This document shows, piece after piece, positions 4,289-44,639 of a DNA stretch of 64,000 nt. Every line of letters starts with the position of its first letter. Position 1 is the first letter of the stretch. Under the pieces are notes generated by a model. The model searched no databases. It saw only the letters and a list, made by a program, of their open reading frames with translations, and was not told where the DNA came from. Position numbers and translations under genes: made by a program. The DNA is from Nannobrachium achirus (taxonomy: Eukaryota > Chordata > Actinopteri > Myctophiformes > Myctophidae), in the NCBI GenBank assembly GCA_963921795.1, contig OY997643.1, positions 74,327,874 through 74,391,873 on the forward strand. Direction: 5' to 3'.

Positions 4289-4386
4289 AACCTTCAACCC
4301 AGCAGACTACACCGTAGGGGCGGGCACGGGGACCACGCAAACGGAGGTCTGGGAAACCGACGCCAACAACGGCACAGATGGAACAG
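4289..4386 (+). CDS. ubap2: ubap2 exon 1 of window (TFNPADY)
   Basis: Acceptor TCCCCTCCAG. The first base completes a codon from the missing upstream exon; the frame then reads [14 protein letters not shown]. It ends ACAG before GTTGGC, a weak donor, leaving one base that joins TT of exon 2 to make a Val codon. Confidence 0.8.

Positions 4387-44639: not shown

Follow-up and report, generated by a model that had tools for sequence, protein, structure and literature searches.

Tandem arrays that multiply splice sites are a real, recurring pattern in this genome and represent a known kind of repeat in a new setting. With a probability of about three in four, we read them as mirages, that is, as minisatellites whose founding units straddled exon-intron borders and whose initiation was favoured at junctions, and we combine these elements below into the steps of one explanation. 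The arrays are best read as a vertebrate, chromosome-end-biased form of mirages. With an exon-intron border inside the founding unit, each further copy brings along a splice site that looks functional.

The arrays were first noticed in the window, the whole 64,000-nucleotide stretch analysed here (C6:74327874-74391873), situated on a contig of 75.05 Mb, at a distance of 0.66-0.72 Mb from its end, in an assembly of 1.6585 Gb and 564 contigs. Its gene order and repeats would fit a ray-finned fish. Reading the letters for splice consensus and an unbroken frame yielded a gene model with 20 exons for the part of the gene within the window (4289-44639), with a continuous frame ending at a stop and consensus splice signals; exons are numbered within the window. 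The most likely identity of the gene is ubap2, as judged from the Pfam domain UBAP2-Lig (PF12478, E 1.5e-17), found in one of two gene pieces tested together, and from its flanking genes, which are NUDT2-, UBE2R2-, UBAP1- and DCAF12-like upstream and MYORG-like downstream. Domain and neighbours agree with the ubap2-family identity proposed in the initial annotation; for gene order, we relied on what we take to be the human neighbours of UBAP2. Three further ubap2 pieces had no Pfam match over the cut-off, and an Rfam scan of the window gave no match at the gathering score. The gene extends upstream beyond the modelled part by at least six more exons. Two of 11 borders there, an exon 1 donor and one acceptor, carry arrays and are duplicated in the 20-mer test described below, which overlooked a further two-copy donor.

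TRF, which returned 110 rows for the window, and approximate matching of each border recovered all seven border arrays that had been described for ubap2, with copy numbers approximately as claimed and regular unit lengths in the same range of 39-59 bp (Table 1). Each of the seven units consists of an exon end plus an intron start or of an intron end plus an exon start, and by approximate matching the arrays are located at five donors and two acceptors. As the initial annotation had stated, the arrays are unrelated in sequence yet follow a common position rule, and we found the same rule in five neighbouring genes. At the exon 8 acceptor, the last copy is the one attached to the exon, and the unit includes eight exon bases. 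For the exon 13 donor, TRF reported 6.1 units versus five border copies by approximate matching, while the exon 17 donor has 24 copies in total by the latter method. The three exon 15 donor copies are separated by a CCCTAA-like telomeric motif. Two sub-patterns account for 12 copies of the exon 19 donor, more divergent units adjoin, and stops are met when this array is read through.

Table 1. Arrays and related features of ubap2 in the window (window positions; a slash marks the exon-intron border).
Feature	Position	Strand	Description	Basis
Array short of acceptor	4025-4275	+	ends 13 bp before acceptor of exon 4289-4386; without AG	TRF
Coding minisatellites within exon (contrast class)	13777-14104	+	48 and 27 bp, both divisible by three	TRF
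Exon 8 acceptor array	18032-19230	+	52-bp x 23; acceptor TTGTTCCCACAG/TGAGTC of exon 19223-19511	TRF; 23 copies by approximate matching
Repeat short of acceptor	20391-20443	+	25-bp x 2; ends ~4 bp before acceptor of exon 20447-20486	TRF
Coding repeat within exon 22676-23072 (contrast class)	22837-22925	+	24 bp, multiple of three	TRF
Exon 12 donor array	23042-23218	+	59-bp x 3; donor CCACCA/GTATGT of exon 22676-23072; exon end forms the first copy	TRF and matching, 3 copies
Exon 13 donor array	32158-32430	+	irregular, ~43-bp x 6; donor TATCCA/GTAAGT of exon 32099-32190	TRF and matching
Exon 15 donor array	34430-34616	+	3 copies of donor CATACTCAG/GTAATCC; exon 34352-34442	TRF and matching
Exon 17 donor unit, exon-attached first copy	36537-36566	+	GGGAAAG/GTAAG; exon 36460-36561	gene model and matching
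Insertion in exon 17 donor unit	36567-37519	.	~950 bp; ends TAGGG...CCTA; flanking 8-bp AAGGTAAG	read from sequence
Exon 17 donor array, remainder	37519-38541	+	47-bp x 22	TRF and matching
Exon 17 donor unit, last copy	41017-41055	+	separated by a second insertion, ~38545-41016	matching; insertion read by eye
Exon 19 donor array	43567-44242	+	~48-bp x 12-14; donor CACCTGGAG/GTAGCG of exon 43414-43584	TRF and matching
Exon 20 acceptor array	44375-44582	+	39-bp x 5; acceptor TGTGTGCAG/GGGGGTCC of last exon 44544-44639	TRF; 5 copies by matching

The first insertion in the exon 17 donor unit separates this exon from the bulk of its donor array. We take its ends to be hAT-like and the flanking 8 bp to be its target duplication. 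Since this duplication (AAGGTAAG) is the donor itself, the insertion duplicated the donor once more and kept GTAAG on both flanks. The element entered the array as an insertion of its own. Arrays made by transposons, with terminal inverted repeats and target duplications on their units, were not found by reading; the units begin and end within exon or intron sequence.

Other repeats occur in the same introns and elsewhere in the window. Arrays of 29, 30 and 57 bp had been reported to lack a splice site, and these have zero overlap with borders; the 30-bp array (41659-42170) ends 41 bp upstream of an acceptor. Telomere-like CCCTAA or TTAGGG motifs lie within or near arrays at 34451-34600, ~35940-35970 and ~45270-45310, and the MYORG array, which is beyond the window, has such motifs too; break repair near chromosome ends may have left them as filler. 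An apparent large inverted repeat in a ubap2 intron (23300-28700), in which the TRF rows of the two halves (130-bp, 100-bp and 8/17-bp units) are mirror images, is perhaps a palindromic element. A second inverted repeat seen by eye at ~8010-9750, one arm of which contains a direct repeat of 88 bp, is probably a mobile element. At 58671-59286, a 24-bp x 26 array lies in a long open frame on both strands, of which the minus-strand frame would encode Ser-Ala-Ser-Asn-Asn repeats.

Since arrays inflate their own length, plain array coverage was dropped as a measure of border coverage, and the null model treated each array as one founding unit or weighted positions by one over copy number. In ubap2, five TRF arrays lie over a border versus 1.3-1.5 expected with seeds anywhere in the gene (p 0.007-0.016; 24-41 arrays, depending on threshold), and restricting seeds to 500 bp or less from exons gave p 0.01-0.02. 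When all seven arrays were counted, the Poisson p was 0.001-0.002, or 0.009 under a deliberately high mean. A test with 20-mers straddling the borders identified six of 39 window borders as duplicated versus a control rate of 4.2-5.8% (p 0.006-0.024); exon 17 was overlooked because of its ~950-bp insertion. The border excess inside ubap2 is moderate, and as this gene was selected for its arrays, independent genes were needed for the statistics; the neighbouring genes provide the stronger evidence.

Joining the window and 200 kb of flanking sequence gave 264 kb, in which 119 minisatellite arrays (period at least 20, score at least 100) make up 57.5 kb, or 22%. A simple exon finder, trained on ubap2 and 58 other exons of the genome and blind to arrays, recovered at least one border for 17 of the 20 window exons. 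It made about half as many calls on reversed as on real sequence, which means that false exons are frequent among its calls. We kept 22 of the exons it proposed as five genes, with array overlaps visible during the choice. Judging by known homologues, these exons presumably belong to NUDT2, UBE2R2, UBAP1, DCAF12 and MYORG, DCAF12 being the one gene compared with a solved chain. Among their 41 borders, 12 have a straddling 20-mer repeated within 3 kb versus 2.2 expected (5.3%; p 9.5e-7). Placing seeds within 300 bp of the border raised the control to 5.6% (p 1.6e-6). The original control omitted low-complexity positions, and including them alters little (2.4 expected, p 2.3e-6 to 3.2e-6); over controls with and without such positions, the rate was 5.0-6.0%, with 2.0-2.5 expected and p 4.6e-7 to 3.2e-6. 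Each of the five genes contains at least one duplicated border, and donors are affected at eight of 20 versus four of 21 acceptors. Among these are a UBE2R2 donor with 27 further copies of a 31-bp unit, a UBAP1 donor with 28 further copies of a 36-bp unit and a donor of DCAF12 whose unit recurs 25 more times. The DCAF12 exons align gap-free at their joins to human DCAF12 (8ajm, E 1.7e-213), which places three array-bearing DCAF12 donors at conserved joins. A local junction excess across six adjacent genes is well supported, with the qualification that all five genes used for the test are next to ubap2, and a single hot spot may underlie them all.

The position of arrays relative to the border follows a steep gradient. 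For 59 arrays and 92 borders in the six genes, the density per border and bp was 0.0029 for spanning arrays, 0.0022 at 1-25 bp, 0.0013 at 26-50 bp and 0.0002 at 51-100 bp, a more than tenfold drop from the value at the border, with 0 at 101-200 bp and 0.0003 at 201-500 bp. In counts, 13 arrays span a border, eight lie within 50 bp (at least three of these being border arrays whose first copy was trimmed by TRF), one at 51-100 bp, none at 101-200 bp, nine at 201-500 bp and 25 beyond, while three are in exons. Units of the 13 border arrays called by TRF measure 31-62 bp; a few spacings reach 184 bp, the split copy of exon 17 excepted.

The genome-wide test proposed in the initial annotation was carried out on samples. 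We took 40 stretches of 1.9 kb, blind to repeats, at exon matches of the myosin, kinesin and tyrosine phosphatase families. Minisatellites account for 22% (3784 bp) of the nine loci within 10 Mb of contig ends versus 1.4% (798 bp) of the 31 loci elsewhere; neither the rank correlation between array content and distance to the contig end (p 0.28) nor the comparison of presence versus absence within 10 Mb (Fisher p 0.17) reached significance. Eight of 101 called borders were duplicated versus 2.4 expected (p 0.003), with five of the eight contributed by the distal locus L028. This locus was excluded as a border-array locus, as whole exons are duplicated there ~985 bp apart; it spans positions 1-1900 of a stretch on C23 with a tandem whole-exon duplication in a kinesin-like gene, and further matches follow a few kb on. 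Without L028, three of 95 borders were duplicated versus 1.5 expected, which is non-significant (p 0.19). All three are among the 15 distal borders, where 0.54 were expected (p 0.016), two of them in copies of one gene, versus none of 80 interior borders, where 0.97 were expected (distal versus interior, Fisher p 0.003). An excess was seen at distal loci but neither at interior borders nor in the pooled sample, and the motif counts given below were mixed. We regard the excess in distal regions elsewhere in the genome as suggestive.

Several individual loci carry border arrays. A phosphatase gene on C2 (L037) and its inverted copy (L038) have a 43-bp array at the donor of the matched exon, with 3.8 and 8.5 units, respectively; the two copies lie ~0.67 Mb apart and are ~94% alike over the compared stretch, and their array lengths differ. 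L046 on C15 has a border array at the donor of an exon absent from the match list, and L051 on C16 has a donor array at the phosphatase border VHC/AG. Judging from the unit, the homologous border beside L037 probably also has a donor array, with an intron half that differs from that in L051; a 45-bp array of the C2 gene has a unit resembling a donor and would belong to the preceding exon, itself outside the stretch. L064 was rejected as a border array, its array being located beyond the donor. In whole-genome counts of donor motif pairs against mirrored controls, CAGGTAAGT gave 243 versus 470, CAGGTAAG 644 versus 1178 and CAGGTGAG 3099 versus 825, totals that point both ways. Among the matches listed (the first 100 for each motif), the pairs fall mostly in a few long arrays or repeat families, and those listed for CAGGTGAG, sorted by contig, extend only from 2.96 to 6.05 Mb of C1, mostly in one array.

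These data bear on an alternative in which the overlaps arise by chance, as some borders in a minisatellite-dense region would inevitably be covered without any position rule. The 22% array content of the 264 kb, the modest values for ubap2 alone (p 0.007-0.02 for TRF border arrays), the pooled blind sample without enrichment (3/95 versus 1.5) and the two motif counts that fall under their controls are all in line with it. We nevertheless consider it unlikely, as it does not account for 12 of 41 borders in other genes versus 2.0-2.5 expected, for a density that peaks on the border and declines within 50 bp, or for the distal blind loci (3/15 versus 0.54). Misassembly, by which junction repeats would have been collapsed or inflated, had been named the main alternative, and to us appears least probable, with very small odds. 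Copy numbers of long arrays can err in any assembly, and the lancelet authors reported one aberrantly assembled mirage (PMC3087553). Such errors are, however, unlikely to explain all arrays, which are spread over four contigs (C6, C2, C15 and C16) in genes without relation to one another, have variant bases among their units and include the 43-bp array shared by two separately assembled phosphatase gene copies.

Further alternatives concern the origin and the maintenance of the arrays. The junction itself might be a mutational target, with transcription, R-loops or splicing-coupled breaks starting the duplications and chromosome ends giving only the repair mode. This is a real possibility that we place somewhat below even odds: the narrow density maximum, which falls off within about 50 bp of a border, the preponderance of donors in neighbouring genes (8/20 versus 4/21) and the VHC/AG donor arrays in L051 and, putatively, beside L037, with their different intron halves, all agree with it, but the sampled interior loci are also genes and yet have 0 of 80 borders duplicated. 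Alternatively, the extra sites could be retained as useful, with rows of donors or acceptors making exon recognition safer or tuning splicing. The homogeneity of copies (median 96% in 13 border arrays) would fit such a role, but other arrays are equally homogeneous (median 95%, 106 arrays), copy number is unlike between two copies of one gene, and use of another copy would harm the gene product at 13 of the 14 donors considered, so that we judge this improbable. The same similarity values argue against longer survival alone as the source of the excess, and make preferred initiation near junctions likelier.

The mirage reading with junction-favoured initiation can be laid out in four steps. First, tandem duplications of ~30-180 bp would be frequent in the outer parts of chromosomes, as the array density in our samples indicates, probably through recombination or break repair. 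Second, a duplication inside an exon would survive only if the reading frame is kept, while one that straddles a border may have any length; unit lengths suggest that the exon-attached copy still splices and the other copies fall in the intron. Periods of exonic arrays are divisible by three in four of four cases (48, 27, 24 and 18), versus four of 13 border arrays (36, 54, 48 and 39). Splicing to the next donor copy would produce a frame shift or stop at 13 of the 14 donors, and since a wrong copy would spoil the frame there, the additional copies probably leave with the intron. Most simply read, the exon-attached copy would be used and all others removed by splicing, so that selection would tolerate any unit length. 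Third, arrays would grow and shrink by slippage or unequal exchange, a step supported by the 3.8 versus 8.5 units in the two phosphatase gene copies. Fourth, founding units appear to lie on the border several times more often than under uniform placement, most likely through preferred initiation on transcribed junctions or up to about 50 bp away; we observed this excess in one neighbourhood, and its cause is what we infer.

A wider claim is more doubtful, namely that distal junctions might be a hot spot for minisatellite birth, where at least a fifth of borders would carry intact duplicate sites that are read correctly and serve as raw material for new introns or exons. If the pattern holds genome-wide, this vertebrate would offer a natural series of up to dozens of near-identical splice sites beside one exon, making it testable how the spliceosome chooses when numerous sites are equivalent, and with what frequency new introns come from tandem duplication, and minisatellite birth would be linked to gene architecture besides chromosome ends.

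Related arrays are known from other genomes. One fish genome has 21% tandem repeats, with G+C-rich ones preferentially centromeric, according to the available part of PMC2688266. Human subtelomeres are enriched in long-unit, GC-rich VNTRs, and in both systems longer-unit minisatellites are concentrated near chromosome ends; the accessible part of PMC7608644 claims no anchoring to splice borders. In recent human paralogues, internal tandem repeats of minisatellite size likewise occur at exon-intron boundaries and can alter gene structure; as far as the available part of PMC2812944 shows, these are differences between segmental duplicates and are linked to alternative splicing or the gain of introns. 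In the present genome, single genes are also affected, and the DCAF12 joins are conserved with human. Beyond this human report, no vertebrate report of border arrays was recognised among the matches listed, in a partial coverage of the literature. Splice signals copied by tandem duplication are also shared with intron gain by duplications holding AGGT, as reportedly in potato RdRp. Intron gain of this kind is also credited to Rogers 1989 in PMC3087553. There, a new intron is said to arise from the duplication, whereas the arrays described here multiply a border that already exists. The exons of DCAF12 connect without a break along its human counterpart.

Closest to our arrays are the mirages of lancelets. 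Canestro 2002 is said to be the founding paper. Although the initial annotation knew of no described class of junction-anchored arrays, mirages are such a class, reported in the lancelet genes Adh3, the globins BflGb6 and BflGb9, TnC and PGBD5, at donor and acceptor borders alike, with copy numbers that vary, seemingly undisturbed splicing and an intron-gain model (PMC3087553 and PMC3902484, in the parts available). From those parts, both systems have minisatellite-like copies over an existing border, at donors and acceptors, with AG/GT signals and varying copy number. Units over the exon-intron border were found at the seven ubap2 sites, in five neighbouring genes and at L037, L038, L046 and L051; both intron borders are involved (five donors and two acceptors in the window, 8/20 and 4/21 in the neighbours); and the 31-62 bp units of 13 TRF arrays, with AG or GT in many copies, lie within the ~10-160 bp of mirages. 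Mirages differ in length between haplotypes or individuals; here, the comparison covered two gene copies in one assembly (3.8 versus 8.5 units). The accessible lancelet text mentions RT-PCR, and mirages are spliced regularly in spite of their copies; for the arrays described here, unit lengths and frames would predict the same. This genome differs from the lancelet case in being that of a vertebrate, in the many affected borders of adjacent genes, in a measured local border excess and in a bias towards contig ends.
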